Source of the DNA: Stenotrophomonas maltophilia
Lineage (GTDB): Bacteria > Pseudomonadota > Gammaproteobacteria > Xanthomonadales > Xanthomonadaceae
Length of the DNA stretch: 64,000 bases
Reading direction: 5' to 3'
NCBI RefSeq assembly: GCF_006974125.1
Contig: NZ_CP037858.1
Location: 4,471,001 to 4,535,000, forward strand
Shown here: positions 4,308 to 12,371 of the stretch, piece by piece
How the letters are laid out: each line of letters opens with the position of its first letter
Position numbering within the stretch: the stretch's first letter is position 1
The notes under the pieces: model-generated
The model's input: the letters and a program-made list of their open reading frames with translations, nothing else
What the model was told of the DNA's origin: nothing
Databases searched by the model: none
Translations under genes and position numbers: made by a program

Positions 4308-5639
4308 TCATTCGCTCAGCTTCCGGATCAGCTTGTCCCAGTCCTCGCGGAGCTTGCCGTCGGTTTCCATCAGGGTGCGGATCTGGCGGCAGGCATGCAG
4401 CACCGTGGTGTGATCGCGACCGGCAAAGGCGTCGCCGATCTCGGGCAGGCTGTGCTCGGTCAGTTCCTTGGTCAGGGCCATGGCGACCTGGCGGGGGCGG
4501 GCCAGCGAGCGGGTCCGACGCTTCGACAGCAGATCCTTGATCTGCAGGCCGTAGTAGTCGGCAACGGTTTTCTGGATGTTGGGAATGCTGATCGCCTGCT
4601 GCTGGGCGCGCAGCAGATCGCGCAGGGTTTCCTGGGCGAATTCGGTGGTGATCGCGCGGCCGGTGAAATTGGCGCGGGCGGTCAGCGTATTGAGCGCGCC
4701 CTCGAGGTCGCGCACGTTGGAGCGCATCTTCTTGGCGATCAGGAACGCAACATCATCGGGAATCTCGGCACCGCGCTCGCGCGCCTTGGCCAGCACGATC
4801 GCGGCGCGGGTCTCGAAGTCCGGCGGTTCGATCGCGACCGACAGGCCCCAGGCAAGCCGCGACTTCAGGCGCGCTTCCAGGCCCTCGACTTCGCGCGGAT
4901 AGCGGTCACAGGTCAGGATGATCTGCTGCTTGCCATCGAACAACGCGTTGAAGGTGTGGAAGAACTCTTCCTGGGTGCGGTCCTTGCCGGCGAAGAACTG
5001 GATGTCATCGATCAACAGCGCGTCCACCTGCTGGAACTGGCGCTTGAACTGATCCATGGTCTTTTCCTGAAGGGCCCGGATCATCGCGCTGAAGAACTGT
5101 TCCGAACGCAGGTACAGCACCTTCGCGCCCGGATTGGCCTGGCGCATGGCGTTGCCGGCGGCGAACATCAGGTGGGTCTTGCCCAGGCCGGTGCCTCCGT
5201 ACAGCAGCAGCGGGTTGTGCGCGCGGTCGCCCGGCTTCTGCGCCGCCTGGAACGCGGCGGCCAGGCCCAGCTGATTGCTGCGGCCTTCAACGAAGTTGGC
5301 GAACGTGTAGTGATTGTCCAGGTTGCCGGCAAACGGCACCTGCGGTTCGCTGGACACATGCGCCGATGGCGTGGAAACCGGCGCGTTCTGCGCCTCCACA
5401 GGGCGCGGGCGCGAGCCGATTTCAAGGAAAACGTCGCTGAAACCGGCGAAATGCGCCAGCAGTTCGCGGATCCGGGCCAGATACAGCTCGCGGACCTGGT
5501 CGACGATGAAGGCATTCGGTGCATACAGCACCAGGCTGTCCACGCGCAGATCGGCCTGCAGCGGCTTCAACCAGGTATGAACGTCTTCCGGCGGGAACTC
5601 CGCTTCGAGGCGCTCGAGACTACGGGACCAAGCATCCAT
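4308..5639 (-). CDS. dnaA: Chromosomal replication initiator DnaA
   Basis: DnaA is the AAA+ initiator that binds DnaA boxes and opens oriC. The 443-residue protein starting at the ATG ([16 protein letters not shown]) has domain I, a proline/alanine linker, the Walker A motif [12 protein letters not shown] at about residue 145, Walker [10 protein letters not shown], and the C-terminal DnaA signature [16 protein letters not shown] two codons upstream (5643-5645) could also serve, but the ATG matches Xanthomonas DnaA starts as I recall them. Transcription is leftward, away from the putative oriC. Confidence 0.97.
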
Positions 5640-5764
5640 CAGCAATAATCGTCCGGTGGCCGGGGCATGGACGCGACAAGGCGCCCAAACACAGGCCGGA
5701 AAGGGGGGAAATGGATGGCTCAGACTACCACCGAGCGCCCGCCTTCGGAATGCTTGTCCCCTAC

Positions 5765-6040: not shown

Positions 6041-6535
6041 ATGCCGCACATCGCGGCAGACGCAATCCCTTCGACAGTGAATACTGCAGACCCGCGCAAG
6101 CGATTCCCTCGCTCTGCGCGGGTTCGCACGCGTGCCGAATATTCAACGGTCTTCAACGGCGCCCGCCGTGTGTCCGATCCGCTGATGACCCTGCACTGGC
6201 TGCCGGCTGACCGGCCGGCCAGGCTGGGTCTGGCGGTTTCCCGCAAGGTTGATCCGAACGCCGTCGGGCGTAACCGGATCAAGCGCGTCCTGCGCGACAT
6301 CCTGCGTCAGACACGTACCGACATCCAGCCAGGCGACTTTGTCGTCGTGGCTCGTAGTGCTGCGCGTTCCGCCAGCAACGACGAGATCCGCCAGGCCTTC
6401 CTGCGCCTGCTGCGTCGCCTGCGTGCATTGCCCACGCCGGGCGTGGACGGCACAATGCCGCCGCCTGATGGCATCGCAACTCCTTCTTTGACCGAGCCGG
6501 CATCGCGTCCCGGCCCCGCCGAGCCTGTCCGCTGA
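6041..6535 (+). CDS. rnpA: Ribonuclease P protein component
   Basis: RnpA is the protein cofactor of RNase P, which matures tRNA 5' ends. The family motif RNRIKR ([11 protein letters not shown]) and the [15 protein letters not shown]-terminal segment are clear. The frame opens at an ATG at 6041 just after rpmH; a GTG at 6077 ([13 protein letters not shown]) is an equally plausible start. The C-terminal tail after about residue 130 is proline-rich and longer than in many RnpA proteins. Its stop overlaps the yidC start (TGATG), leaving no room for yidD. Confidence 0.95.
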
Positions 6536-8250
6536 TGAACCAGACCCGCGTATTCCTCATTTTTGCCTGGCTGATGGTGGCCGTGCTGCTGTGGATGGAG
6601 TGGAGCCGTGAAAAGGCTGCTCCGACCCCGGCACCGACGACCACGTCGGCCCCGGCCGCCGCACAGAGTGTTCCGGGCGCGACCCCGGGCGCCATCCCCA
6701 GTGCCCAGGTGCCGGGCGCCCCGGGCCAGGCTGCCGTGCAGGCCCAGGCCAGCGCCACCCCGGCCAGCCAGCGCGTGACCGTCACCACCGACGTGCTGCG
6801 CCTGGTGCTCGACGGCGGCCGCGTGCTGGACGCCGAGCTGCTGCAGTTCCCGCAGACCAAGGACGAAGGCAGCCCGCCGGTCCGCCTGCTGACCGAAGAC
6901 CCCGCGCACCCGTACAGCGCGATCAGCGGCTGGGCCAGCGAAGACAAGAACACCCCGGTGCCGGGTGCCGACGGCTTCAAGCTGGTCGGCGACACCAAGG
7001 ACTTCGTGCTGGCCAAGGGCCAGAACGAGCTGCAGATCCCGTTCGTGTGGACCGCCGACAACGGCGTGACCATCAAGCGCACCCTGACCGTCTCGCGCAA
7101 CGAGTACGCCGTGCGCTTCAAGGACGAAGTCAGCAACGCTGGCGCCGCCCCGTGGAACGGCTACGTCTACCGCACCCTGGACCGCACCCCGACCATCCTG
7201 TCGCGGAGCATGACCAACCCGGATTCGTTCAGTTTCAACGGTGCCACCTGGTACGACAACGACAAGAAGTACCAGCGTCGTGCGTTCAAGGACTACCTGG
7301 AAGACGGCACGCTGAACCAGAACATCACCGGTGGCTGGCTGGCGATGCTGCAGCACCACTTCTTCACCGCCTGGATCCCGCAGAAGGACCAGACCGCGCA
7401 CTACGTGCTGTCGCAGGTGGCCGGTCGTGACCTGATCGAAGCGCGTGGCCCGGCCTTCACCGTGGCCCCGGGCCAGTCCACCAGCACCGAAGCCCGCCTG
7501 TGGGTTGGCCCGAAGCTGGTCAACCTGATCGCCAAGGAAGACGTGCCGGGCCTGGACCGCGTGGTCGACTACAGCCGCTTCTCGATGATGGCGGTGATCG
7601 GCCAGGGCCTGTTCTGGGTGCTGAACCAGGTGCACAAGCTGGTCGGCAACTGGGGCTGGGCGATTGTCGGCCTGGTGGTGCTGCTGAAGCTGGTGCTGTA
7701 CCCGCTGTCGGCCGTGCAGTACAAGAGCGGCGCCAAGATGCGTCGCTTCCAGCCGCGCATCGCGCAGTTGAAGGAACGCTACGGCGATGACCGCCAGAAG
7801 TTCCAGACCGCGATGATGGAGCTGTACAAGAAGGAAAAGATCAATCCGATGGGCGGCTGCCTGCCGATCCTCATCCAGATGCCGATCTTCTTCGCCCTGT
7901 ACTGGGTGCTGGTCGAGTCGGTCGAACTGCGCCAGGCGCCGTGGCTGGGCTGGATCCAGGACCTGACCGCACGCGACCCGTACTTCATCCTGCCGGTGAT
8001 CAACGTGGCGGTGATGTGGTTCACCCAGAAGCTCACCCCGGCACCGGGCATGGACCCGATGCAGCAGAAGATGATGCAGTTCATGCCGCTGGTGTTCGGC
8101 GTCATGATGGCCTTCATGCCGTCCGGCCTGGTCCTGTACTGGGTGGTCAACGGCGGCCTGGGCCTGCTGCAGCAGTGGTGGATGACCAAGCGCCATGGCG
8201 GCGAGCCGGTCCCGGCCACCACCGCCCCGGCTCCGGTCAAGAAGAAATAA
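6535..8250 (+). CDS. yidC: Membrane protein insertase YidC
   Basis: YidC inserts and folds inner-membrane proteins alone or with SecYEG. The 571-residue protein has an N-terminal membrane anchor (residues 4-22), an Ala/Pro-rich linker, the large periplasmic beta-sandwich domain (about 80-345), and the conserved C-terminal transmembrane core with [20 protein letters not shown] and [18 protein letters not shown]. The C-terminus ends in KKK. It overlaps rnpA by one base and is followed by a strong bidirectional terminator. Confidence 0.97.
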
Positions 8251-8265
8251 TCCCGACCGACCCGC

Positions 8266-8291
8266 AAAAGCCCGCCGCAAGGCGGGCTTTT
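8266..8291. terminator. Terminator after yidC
   Basis: AAAAGCCCGCC, a GCAA loop, then GGCGGGCTTTT: a perfect 11-bp stem-loop with A and T runs on both sides. It ends the rpmH-rnpA-yidC transcript, so the next gene at 8346 needs its own promoter. Confidence 0.9.
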
Positions 8292-8345
8292 CGCATGCGG
8301 CGTTAGAATTCCCCGGACACCGTTCCTCCCACTTCCGAGTCCGCC

Positions 8346-11018
8346 ATGCCGCGTGCGTCGTCGTTCCGCCTGTTCCTGCCTTCGCTGCTGCTCACCCTGG
8401 TCGTTGCCGGCTGTGGTGACAAGGACGCGAAGGCACCGGCGACCACCGTCACCCAGCCCAGCGCGCAGGCGGCTGCTGCTGCCGATCCGGCCGCTGCACC
8501 GTTGCTGGCTGCGTTGCAGAAGCAGCTCGACGGCTACCGCCGGATCATCGTGCTGCTGGCCGACGAGGAACAGCAGTCGGCCGCCGACCGTGGTACCTCC
8601 ACGCGCGTGGGCCAGCAGCTGTTCCACGATGGGCTGGAACAGCGCACGGCGATCGCCGCACAGTTCGATACGCTGCTGCGTGGTTCCAGCCCCCAGCGCT
8701 TCGCCACCCTCGGCACCGTGCTGGACTACATCGAGTCGGCGCCGGAACTGTTCGACGCCGACCGCCTGGCTTTCCGCGAAGTGCTGCGCGATCTGCATGA
8801 GCGCGTCGGCACCGACTCTTCGCTGCCGGCGGTGAAGCTGCACCAGCGCATCGGCGAGGACCTGGAAGCGCTCGATGAGATCGAACGCAACTACAACCAG
8901 GAACTGACCCGCATCTTCAGCCGCTTCGAACGCACCCGTGCCATCGAGCTCAAGCGCGAGAAGTGGGAGGACTACATCGCCCACCTGCACAAGGACTACA
9001 ACCGCGAAGCGATCCTGCGCGACTACGGCGTGATCGAGCCGTACCCGATGTCGATGAAGGACAGTGACCGCGAGATCTTCGGCCGCGACCTGCCGGCCAA
9101 GACCGTGGTGCTGACCTTCGACGATGGCCCGCACAAGGCCTATACCGATGAAGTGGTGGCCATCCTCAAGCGCTACGACGTGCCGGGAGTGTTCTTCGAA
9201 GTGGGCCGCAACCTGGGCAAGGTGGAAGCCGATGGCAAGGTCAGTCTCGGCCCGATGGCGAAGATCAGTCGCAATCTGATGGAGGAGGGCTATGCGGTGG
9301 GCAACCACAGCCTGACCCACGCCCAGCTCTCGCGCACCACCGGTGATGCGCTGCGCCAGCAGGTGCTGGACACCGACACGCTGCTGAAGGATGTCGACAG
9401 CAAGCGTGCACCGCTGTTCCGCTTCCCCTATGGCGCGCGCAACGCCGAAGGCCTGCAGCTGCTCAACGAGGCCGGGCTGAAATCGATCATGTGGAACATC
9501 GACTCGATGGACTGGGCCGACCCGGTCCCGGAGTCGATCGTGCAGCGCGTGCTCGACCAGGTGAACAAGGAACAGCGCGGCATCATCCTGTTCCACGACA
9601 TCCACGATCGTGCGGTGAAGGCGCTGCCGCAGATCCTCGACCGCCTGATTGCCGATGGCTACCAGTTCGCAGGCTGGAACGGCCGCGACTTCACCGTTGC
9701 CCGCGCGCGCAAGGGCGACACCGGTGCCGCCACCGTCACCACTGGCTACGAGAAGTCGTGGGCGATCGTGGTCGGCATCGACAACTACGCCAAGTGGCCG
9801 AAGCTGGAGTACGCCAGCCATGACGCGCAGGCGGTGGCCGACACGCTGACCGGGCAGTTTGGTTTCCCGTCCTCGCAGGTGATCGTGCTGAAGAACGAGC
9901 AGGCCACCCGCAACAACATCCTGGCCGCCTTCCACGACCGCCTGGCCGATGACCGCACCGGAAAGAACGATCGCGTGTTCGTGTTCTTCGCCGGCCATGG
10001 TGCCACCCGCCAGCTCGCCTCCGGACGCGACCTTGGCTACATCATTCCGGTCGATTCGGACCCGAAGGAATTTGCCACCGACGCCATTGCGATGACCGAC
10101 ATCCAGAACATCGCCGAGAGCATGCAGGCCAAGCATGTGATGTTCGTGATGGATGCCTGCTACAGCGGCCTGGGCCTGACCCGTGGCGGCCCGGCGTCGT
10201 CGTCGTTCCTGCGCGAGAACGCACGCCGCAGCGCACGCCAGATGCTGACAGCCGGCGGCGCCGACCAGCAGGTCGCCGACGCCGGTCCCAATGGCCATTC
10301 GGTGTTTACGTGGGTGCTGCTGCAGGCGCTGGCCGGCAAGGGCGACCTCAACGGCGATGGCCTGATCACGGGTACCGAACTGGCCGCCTACGTGGCGCCG
10401 GCCGTCTCGGCCGTTTCGCACCAGACGCCGGCCTTCGGCAGCCTGCCCGGTTCGCAGGGCGGGGAGTTCGTGTTCCAGGTGCCGGACAGCCAGGAGTTCC
10501 TCAATGCCGATACGCGCCAGCTGACCGCCGATGCGATCGCACTGAACAACAAGGTCGAAGCCGCCAGCGAAGCCAAGGGCAGCCAGGCGCCGGTGACGGT
10601 GGCCGACCTGCAGGGTGGCAAGGCCAAGCTTGTGGTGCCCACTGCCGGCCCGGCGTCGGATCGCCAGCGCGCGCAGCAGGCCAATGACCGTGGCCTGCAG
10701 CTGTACCGCGAAAAGCAGTACGACGAGGCGGTGGCGCAGTTCACCGAGGCGCTGAAGCTGCGCCCGGACTTCGCCCAGGCTGCCAACAACCTCGGATTCG
10801 TCTACTACCGCCAGCAGCGTTACGCTGAAGCCGCACGCTGGCTGGAGAACACGCTGAAGATCGACCCCTCGCGTGCCGTGGCCTATCTCAACCTGGGCGA
10901 CGCCTACTTCAACGCGGGCGACAGGGCCAAGGCGAAGCAGGCCTACACCACCTACCTGGCGCTGCAGCCGCAGGGCAGCGGTGCTGCACAGGCGCGCGCG
11001 CAGCTGGAGAAACTCTGA
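8346..11018 (+). CDS. Lipoprotein with NodB deacetylase, caspase-like and TPR domains (orf900 homologue)
   Basis: 890 residues with four parts. The signal peptide ends in a lipobox VAGC (Cys23). An alpha-helical segment (about 50-240) precedes a polysaccharide deacetylase (NodB) domain: TFDDGP at 257-262, the metal-site HSLTH at 321-325, RFPYGARN at 359-366 and a late LFHDIHD. Then comes a caspase-like (C14) domain from about 468, with catalytic-type His551 in FFAGHG and Cys605 in MDACYSG, plus an EF-hand-like loop DLNGDGLITGTE at 667-678. Two to three TPRs fill 775-880. It probably sits on the periplasmic side of a membrane and acts on an envelope polysaccharide, with the protease-like part of unknown target. 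It is three bases from mnmE. This is the orf900 position of the Xanthomonas origin region. Function is inferred from domains only. Confidence 0.88.
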   Translation: MPRASSFRLFLPSLLLTLVVAGCGDKDAKAPATTVTQPSAQAAAAADPAAAPLLAALQKQLDGYRRIIVLLADEEQQSAADRGTSTRVGQQLFHDGLEQRTAIAAQFDTLLRGSSPQRFATLGTVLDYIESAPELFDADRLAFREVLRDLHERVGTDSSLPAVKLHQRIGEDLEALDEIERNYNQELTRIFSRFERTRAIELKREKWEDYIAHLHKDYNREAILRDYGVIEPYPMSMKDSDREIFGRDLPAKTVVLTFDDGPHKAYTDEVVAILKRYDVPGVFFEVGRNLGKVEADGKVSLGPMAKISRNLMEEGYAVGNHSLTHAQLSRTTGDALRQQVLDTDTLLKDVDSKRAPLFRFPYGARNAEGLQLLNEAGLKSIMWNIDSMDWADPVPESIVQRVLDQVNKEQRGIILFHDIHDRAVKALPQILDRLIADGYQFAGWNGRDFTVARARKGDTGAATVTTGYEKSWAIVVGIDNYAKWPKLEYASHDAQAVADTLTGQFGFPSSQVIVLKNEQATRNNILAAFHDRLADDRTGKNDRVFVFFAGHGATRQLASGRDLGYIIPVDSDPKEFATDAIAMTDIQNIAESMQAKHVMFVMDACYSGLGLTRGGPASSSFLRENARRSARQMLTAGGADQQVADAGPNGHSVFTWVLLQALAGKGDLNGDGLITGTELAAYVAPAVSAVSHQTPAFGSLPGSQGGEFVFQVPDSQEFLNADTRQLTADAIALNNKVEAASEAKGSQAPVTVADLQGGKAKLVVPTAGPASDRQRAQQANDRGLQLYREKQYDEAVAQFTEALKLRPDFAQAANNLGFVYYRQQRYAEAARWLENTLKIDPSRAVAYLNLGDAYFNAGDRAKAKQAYTTYLALQPQGSGAAQARAQLEKL

Positions 11019-11021
11019 GCG

Positions 11022-12371
11022 ATGGACGATACCTTTCGCACTGACACCATCGTCGCCATCGCCAGCGCACCCGGTGCCGGTGGCGTCGGCCTGCTGCGCC
11101 TGTCCGGCCCGCGCGCTGCGGCCATCGCCAACGCGCTGGGTGCGCCCGCGCTGCGCCCGCGCCATGCGCACTACGCACGCCTGCGCGATGCCGACGATGA
11201 GGTGATCGACGATGGCATCGTGCTGTGGTTCCCGGCGCCGAACAGCTTCACCGGCGAAGAGGTGGTGGAACTGCAGGGCCATGGCAGTCCGGTGCTGCTG
11301 CAGCAACTGGTTGCGCGCTGCATCGCGCTGGGCGCGCGCCAGGCACGGCCGGGCGAGTTCAGCGAACGCGCGTTCCTCAACGGCAAGCTCGACCTGGCCC
11401 AGGCCGAGGCCATCGCCGACCTGATCGCCGCCGGCGACAACCGCGCCGCACGCGCCGCTCGCCGTTCGCTGGATGGCGTGTTCTCACGGCGCATCGACGC
11501 CGTGGCCGAGCAGCTGGTGCTGCTTCGCATCCATGTGGAAGCGGCCATCGACTTTGCCGACGAACCGCTGGATACGCTCGGTGGTGCGCAGGTGCGCCTC
11601 GGGCTGGAACAGGCGCGCAGCGATCTGGCCCTGCTGCGCCGCGACGCCGAACGTGGCCGTCGCCTGCGCGATGGCCTGCACGCGGTGCTTATCGGTCCAC
11701 CCAATGCAGGCAAGAGCTCACTGCTGAACGCGCTGGCCGGCAGCGAACGCGCCATCGTCACCGATATCGCGGGCACCACCCGCGACACCCTGCGCGAGAC
11801 CATCCGCCTGGATGGCCTGGAACTGACCCTGGTCGACACCGCGGGACTGCGCGACGGCGGCGACGCCATCGAACGTGAAGGCATGCGCCGCGCCCACGTG
11901 GAGATCGAGCGCACCGATCTGGCACTGATCGTCCTGGATGCGTGCGATCCGGCGGCCGGTGAGGCTGCGCTGGGGCAGGCCGTGGCGGCGGTGCCGCACA
12001 AGGTCTACATCCACAACAAGTCGGACCTGCTGGATACGTTGCCCGCGCTGGATGACCCGGACCGTGTGTTCGTTTCGGCCGCCACCGGCGCCGGGCTGGA
12101 CGACCTGCACGCGCGCCTGCGCAGCATCGCCTCGGCCGGGGCAGGGGAGCAGGTGGATGGCGAGTTCTCCGCGCGCACCCGCCACGTGGATGCGATCGAA
12201 CGCGCACAGGAACACGCACAGCGCGCCGATGGCGAGCTTGCGCACGAACACCTGGAACTGGCCGCCGAAGAACTGCGGCTGGCACATGACGCGCTGGGCG
12301 AGATCACCGGCCAGATGAGTGCCGATGACCTGCTGGGCAGGATCTTCTCCAGTTTCTGCATCGGCAAGTAA
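11022..12371 (+). CDS. mnmE: tRNA uridine-5-carboxymethylaminomethyl GTPase MnmE
   Basis: MnmE with MnmG modifies the wobble uridine of several tRNAs. The 449-residue protein (formerly ThdF/TrmE) has the N-terminal tetrahydrofolate-binding domain, the G domain with Walker [10 protein letters not shown] at about residues 225-233, DIAGTTRDT (switch II region), DTAGLRD and NKSD, and the invariant C-terminal CIGK. Length is typical. It follows orf900 by three bases, so the two are probably co-transcribed. Confidence 0.98.

Follow-up and report, generated by a model that had tools for sequence, protein, structure and literature searches.

Among the prokaryotic caspase homologues described so far, the closest to the 890-residue protein studied here is the 'Xanthomonas-type metacaspase' of Asplund-Samuelsson et al. 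2012 (PMC3501461). The protein is encoded at positions 8346 to 11018 of a 64,000-nucleotide stretch of Stenotrophomonas maltophilia DNA (contig NZ_CP037858.1, positions 4,471,001 to 4,535,000), called the window below. The Xanthomonas type consists of PF01522, a metacaspase domain and tetratricopeptide repeats (TPR). Its hosts there are Xanthomonas, Xylella, Stenotrophomonas and two Acidobacteria; trmE is a conserved neighbour, the catalytic dyad is retained in 17 of 17 sequences, and the type was tied to the reported death of X. campestris pv. glycines (PMC3501461). According to the same paper, helices at the N-terminus of metacaspases could serve as signal peptides, and action outside the cell is considered in general terms. 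The protein of the window shares the domains, their order, the genera and the trmE/mnmE neighbour of this type: PF01522, C14 and TPR follow one another in a single polypeptide. The fusion of a deacetylase with a protease, which the original prediction had taken to be new, is thus already published, Stenotrophomonas and the trmE/mnmE neighbour included (PMC3501461). The anatomy that it described, with the calcium-type loop and the anchor, was confirmed, and its interpretation was partly supported.

The available text on the Xanthomonas type does not mention a lipid anchor, a calcium loop, a helical domain or members in the Burkholderiales, and the words 'EF-hand' and 'calcium' each occur 0 times in the text of PMC3501461. 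No other paper describing this family was found in the open-licence literature by title or start of abstract. The name orf900, used in the original prediction, gave no match together with Xanthomonas in that literature. Orthocaspases are prokaryotic caspase homologues with a histidine-cysteine (HC) dyad that cleave after positively charged residues (PMC6426788), MaOC1 of Microcystis being an example (PMC7935541). Compared with these, the protein of the window has an export signal, an anchor and a fused deacetylase. Seven archaeal orthocaspases carry an EF-hand motif as an extra domain (PMC6426788), whereas the loop described here lies inside the caspase fold. Compared with the CE4 peptidoglycan deacetylases SpPgdA, Bc1960 and Bd3279, the NodB domain is here part of a larger anchored protein. 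Beyond the published fusion, the anchor and the loop are the parts worth testing.

Two catalytic domains on a predicted membrane anchor

The reading frame is uninterrupted from ATG to stop, and a deacetylase, a caspase domain, an EF-hand-type loop and TPR were all found in this one putative lipoprotein, as predicted. The Pfam search matched PF01522 (Polysacc_deac_1) at residues 248-379 (E 5.5e-26), PF00656 (Peptidase_C14) at 471-667 (E 2.6e-22) and several TPR models at about 777-888. The NodB motifs TFDDGP (D259, D260) and HSLTH (H321, H325) are in the translation where they had been placed, and so are the caspase dyad residues H551 (GHG) and C605 (DACYSG). Checked against the list of CE4 motifs 1-5 (D, HxxxH, R, W, H), the metal site and the catalytic residues are complete. 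In structure models the NodB domain adopts a CE4 fold and the C14 domain a caspase fold. Since the full-length model gave a poor caspase domain (pLDDT 66.6), a separate model of that domain was used, its numbering being that of the protein minus 461. By alignment, the acidic residues D493 and D603 occupy the two S1 positions of the caspase domain. Acidic S1 residues go with cleavage after Arg or Lys, and we can predict this specificity, rather than cleavage after Asp, for the present protein.

The catalytic residues and the loop ligands are conserved in 80 of 80 loci from named genomes (80 retained out of 325 candidates), although the peptides FVMDACY and [YF]DADRLAF used in that scan mean that the conservation of Cys605 is partly built in. 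They are also conserved in 25 of 25 loci found without a motif pattern (L031-L055), which are free of this bias but are close relatives (73-99% identity). A dyad missing from most homologues, which would have spoken against the original prediction, was therefore not what we saw. Thirty further loci (L136-L165) were set aside as the motif scripts gave no usable dyad; L136, once read, has a different active-site motif.

The N-terminus carries a lipobox, VAGC-23, in agreement with the predicted lipid anchor. Signal peptides and helices were judged here by patterns, hydropathy and eye. In E. coli, sorting follows the residue behind the lipidated cysteine, and Gly at +2 fits the outer membrane. The lipobox column holds Cys in 62 of the 80 loci, at least three of which have unusual residues ahead of it (L099, L108, L110). 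Of the other 18, two lack the N-terminus (L086 and L102), and the 16 from outside the Xanthomonadaceae have a single hydrophobic N-terminal stretch followed by a spacer of 34-44 residues. Lipid and helix thus appear to stand in for each other, the constant element being a tether with the body of the protein probably outside the cytoplasm.

Between anchor and deacetylase lies a conserved helical domain, residues 45-236. Sequence matches in the PDB reached only E 0.11, and Pfam matches were scattered, one of 12 members matching Eap1 at 1e-4; a known relative was considered and dropped on account of these unconvincing matches. Of 398 genomes of the phylum, 6 gave a match to the domain, always within an open frame of at least 903 codons.

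The EF-hand-type loop of the caspase domain

The calcium-loop-like sequence noted inside the caspase part, DLNGDGLITGTEL, corresponds to residues 667-679 and is the sole match of the protein to the EF-hand pattern. The 12-residue loop D667-E678, with candidate ligands at positions 1, 3, 5, 9 and 12, lies between helices 192-204 and 215-229 of the domain model and thus forms an EF-hand-type helix-loop-helix. When the 890-residue sequence was shuffled, a match anywhere in the protein to this PROSITE-type pattern arose in 86 of 20000 cases.

Loop positions were counted in 114 of 121 sequences, the other seven being unreadable by pattern and dropped. Positions 1 (D), 5 (D, N or E), 9 (T or S) and 12 (E) hold these residues in all 114; position 3 is N, D or S in 112 and K in two, and position 6 is G in 105. 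Position 7, whose ligand in EF-hands is a backbone oxygen, drifts among eight different residues. Counting matches at any place in the protein, the pattern is present in 110 of 120 caspase-domain relatives (among the matches listed, of 400, with fragments and near-duplicates included) versus 0 of 120 members of a sister C14 family, which forms a similar turn but without the acids. With the Pfam model PF13202, 32 of the 66 sequences in the caspase alignment gave a match at E 1 or lower (best 8.5e-4); 22 of the 66 belong to the sister family.

Two wider explanations of the loop were rejected. It is not generic to bacterial C14 proteins, being found in 0 of 15 readable proteins (16 loci) and in 0 of the 118 sister-family proteins in which the dyad motif was found (120 examined). 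Neither does it occur in every exported caspase, as a hydrophobic N-terminus is present in four of the 14 loop-less relatives read, while several of the remaining 10 could be truncated at that end. The sister family itself (L166, L030, P0243-P0362) comprises proteins of mostly about 580 residues, with the dyad motif in 118 of 120, a hydrophobic N-terminus in 0 of 120, and hosts among Stenotrophomonas, Lysobacter, Pseudomonas and others. In a separate caspase group (L168, L172, L173, L176; open frames of 660-682 codons) the loop is also lacking, the N-terminus is hydrophobic and the caspase domain sits at the C-terminus.

With the residues of the metacaspase calcium site in Yca1 as reference, the acidic insertion behind the catalytic His is missing from our protein (by alignment), so the metacaspase site looks incomplete. 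Compared with the MALT1 paracaspase and with plant and yeast metacaspases, the EF-hand-type loop lies elsewhere, between α4 and α5.

Locus, distribution and loss

NCBIfam models identify the neighbours as DnaA (4308-5645, reverse strand), DnaN, YidC (6535-8250) and MnmE. The gene is flanked by yidC and mnmE at a distance of about 2.7 kb from dnaA, and given these neighbours it adjoins the origin, as had been proposed. The features are collected in Table 1.

Table 1. Features of the deacetylase-caspase gene and its flanks (positions in the window)
Feature	Position	Strand	Remark
Terminator-like hairpin GCCCGCC-GCAA-GGCGGGC-TTTT	8266..8291	+	Between yidC and the gene
-10-like TAGAAT	8304..8309	+	Weak candidate promoter for the gene and mnmE
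Whole gene	8346..11018	+	890 residues: lipoprotein, helical domain, CE4/NodB, caspase fold with EF-hand-type loop, TPR
Signal peptide and lipobox VAG-C23	8346..8414	+	Gly at +2; pattern and by eye
Conserved helical domain, residues 45-236	8478..9053	+	Helices in full-length model
CE4/NodB deacetylase domain, residues 248-445	9087..9680	+	D259, D260, H321, H325, R359, D386, W390, H417
Caspase-fold (C14) domain, residues 468-712	9747..10481	+	
Catalytic His551 codon	9996..9998	+	GHG motif
Catalytic Cys605 codon	10158..10160	+	DACYSG motif
EF-hand-type loop D667-E678	10344..10379	+	Between caspase helices α4 and α5
TPR domain, residues 771-890	10656..11015	+	Pfam and model
mnmE	11022..12371	+	Starts 3 bases downstream of the gene; link looks positional

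A hairpin similar to that in Table 1 was seen by eye after yidC in 20 of 20 intergenic sequences, i.e. 12 of the 57 loci with the gene and all eight without it; a strict terminator scan did not report the one at 8266-8291. A TANAAT sequence follows yidC at a distance of no more than 130 nt in 33 of 57 loci, and a promoter scan found no promoter. The opposite strand of the gene is open over 1175 codons (7779-11306, reverse strand) with no sign of a gene, probably a by-product of high G+C.

In agreement with the Xanthomonas type, mnmE is the downstream neighbour in Xanthomonadaceae. Overall it adjoins the gene in 60 of the 80 loci, in 59 of them on the downstream side and in L111 on the upstream side. 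In the flanks examined of the other 20 (up to 5 kb, some shorter), yidC, rnpA and mnmE were not found; these are 16 loci outside Xanthomonadaceae and four loci from metagenome-assembled genomes with doubtful taxon labels (L088, L089, L091, L092). A conserved partner gene outside Xanthomonadaceae was sought and given up, since with a rough caller of open reading frames no neighbour cluster recurred in more than three of the 20 loci.

Full-length or near-full-length copies were found in 29 of 37 genomes of the genus, one of them cut by a contig end. In the eight that lack the gene, yidC and mnmE are separated by about 88-153 bp in seven and by 330 bp in L192 (genome G034), where an apparent signal-peptide start remains before mnmE. 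This deletion remnant points to loss in L192 and not to primary absence. As the gene can drop out while the hairpin is retained, its coupling to mnmE looks positional. In the family as a whole, matches at 1e-30 were found in 35 of 247 genomes and 8 of 54 genera. The gene is in pieces in three of these 35 (G150, G249, G299), and two Xanthomonas copies (L102, L134) are truncated or incomplete at the N-terminus. Some lineages or assemblies thus seem to show ongoing decay.

Among named genomes, the best matches come from S. maltophilia and its relatives. Orthologues extend to the Burkholderiales, the Hydrogenophilales and Fluviicoccus: nearly full-length proteins with 59-66% identity are present in genomes labelled Polaromonas, Rhodoferax, Janthinobacterium, Massilia, Undibacterium, Thiobacillus, Hydrogenophilales and Fluviicoccus. 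Across nine out-of-family genomes the protein is 54-66% identical to ours versus 48-54% for MnmE, which hints at transfer without proving it. Spread by plasmids was rejected, with one plasmid record at 1e-30 covering a 29% piece at 41% identity. So was spread by phages, the 10 listed of 19 phage records matching around NodB only (residues 187-442). Five contigs labelled Bacillus subtilis, Azonexus or Betaproteobacteria (L101, L088, L089, L091, L092) hold copies of 79-89% identity and probably reflect contamination or mislabelling.

Possible function and competing explanations

We tentatively propose that the Xanthomonas-type metacaspase is an exported two-enzyme protein, tethered to the membrane by a lipid here and by an N-terminal helix in out-of-family orthologues, which combines a glycan deacetylase, probably on the periplasmic side, with a calcium-stabilised Arg/Lys protease. 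The export signal and anchor, the intact CE4 metal site, the intact dyad in a caspase fold, the EF-hand-type loop and the TPR, all read from the sequence and the models, are its basis. The CE4 domain would N-deacetylate peptidoglycan or another GlcNAc-containing envelope glycan, and the caspase domain would cut after Arg or Lys. In the caspase fold the α4-α5 turn is at the end opposite the active-site loops, so that calcium bound there more likely stabilises the p10 half, after exit from the calcium-poor cytoplasm, than enters catalysis. The TPR may hold a partner or substrate. The protease could then control the deacetylase or its release, either by cutting the Arg-containing loop that follows Cys605 in its own chain or by cutting a partner held by the TPR.

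Several observations weigh against this proposal. With PF13202 the caspase domain of the protein scores 11.7 bits versus a cut-off of 25.9 (E 0.19), which is why we call the loop EF-hand-type and not an EF-hand member. Judged from the topology, the loop does not lie at the active site, and calcium may have a structural role only. Export alone does not require a loop, as indicated by the four hydrophobic N-termini among loop-less relatives. Co-retention is the sole sign of a functional link between the two enzymes, and the gene is dispensable, being absent in 8 of 37 same-genus genomes.

It is possible, though rather unlikely, that two independent enzymes merely share an anchor, with no cross-control between deacetylase and protease. 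P0144, a loop-bearing caspase protein with a hydrophobic N-terminus and without NodB, indicates that the protease may function on its own; the 16 out-of-family loci nevertheless keep the order helical domain-NodB-caspase-TPR at nearly full length. Somewhat more doubtful is a loop that has become a frozen structural turn, its calcium binding lost and the protease constitutive. The nine loops without Gly at position 6, the two with Lys at position 3, the sub-threshold Pfam match and the acid-free turn of the sister family would fit this explanation, but positions 1, 5, 9 and 12 admit only calcium-compatible residues in 114 of 114 sequences while position 7 drifts. We are slightly more reserved still about the strict, calcium-gated version of our own proposal, a compartment-locked caspase. 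At the calcium level of the cytoplasm its loop would hold the protease in an unfolded or idle state; calcium met after export would switch it on at the membrane, where it would process itself or a TPR-held partner and so gate the peptidoglycan deacetylase.

That the protein is a programmed-cell-death caspase, acting in stress-induced death of Xanthomonas by killing its own cell, seems improbable, and we rate the exported-enzyme proposal well above it. Antibodies against caspase and PARP are reported to recognise the product of a deacetylase-caspase gene of X. campestris pv. glycines, placed in this family, and for extracellular metacaspases generally a killing action exerted at the cell surface is considered; a size mismatch, 55 kDa versus about 100 kDa, is noted and put down to processing (PMC3501461). 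However, in each of the 78 loci (of 80) whose N-terminus is present, that end carries either a lipobox Cys or a hydrophobic stretch, and a tether with the body outside the cytoplasm is a poor fit to a cytoplasmic executioner. The predicted Arg/Lys specificity (from D493 and D603, by the general rule given above) is unlike caspase-3 activity, and the gene is missing from eight relatives. A role in tRNA modification or translation through an mnmE operon is hardly credible: the 3-base spacing, the adjacency in 60 of 80 loci and the apparent translation function of the operon noted in PMC3501461 are set against the 16 out-of-family and four further loci where mnmE was not found in the flanks, its upstream position in L111, and the eight genomes without the gene in which mnmE follows yidC and a similar hairpin.

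Bacterial caspase homologues are common and few have a known function. Earlier discussion cast this one as a caspase of bacterial apoptosis; the export signal, the predicted basic specificity and the losses from relatives favour a role in the envelope for the exported two-enzyme protein proposed here. The conserved in-fold loop lends itself to a simple biochemical calcium test. Should the protease control the deacetylase, proteolysis and cell-wall editing would be connected in Gram-negative bacteria, and the compartment-locked version, if true, would amount to a calcium-licensed proteolytic control of that editing outside the cytoplasm.
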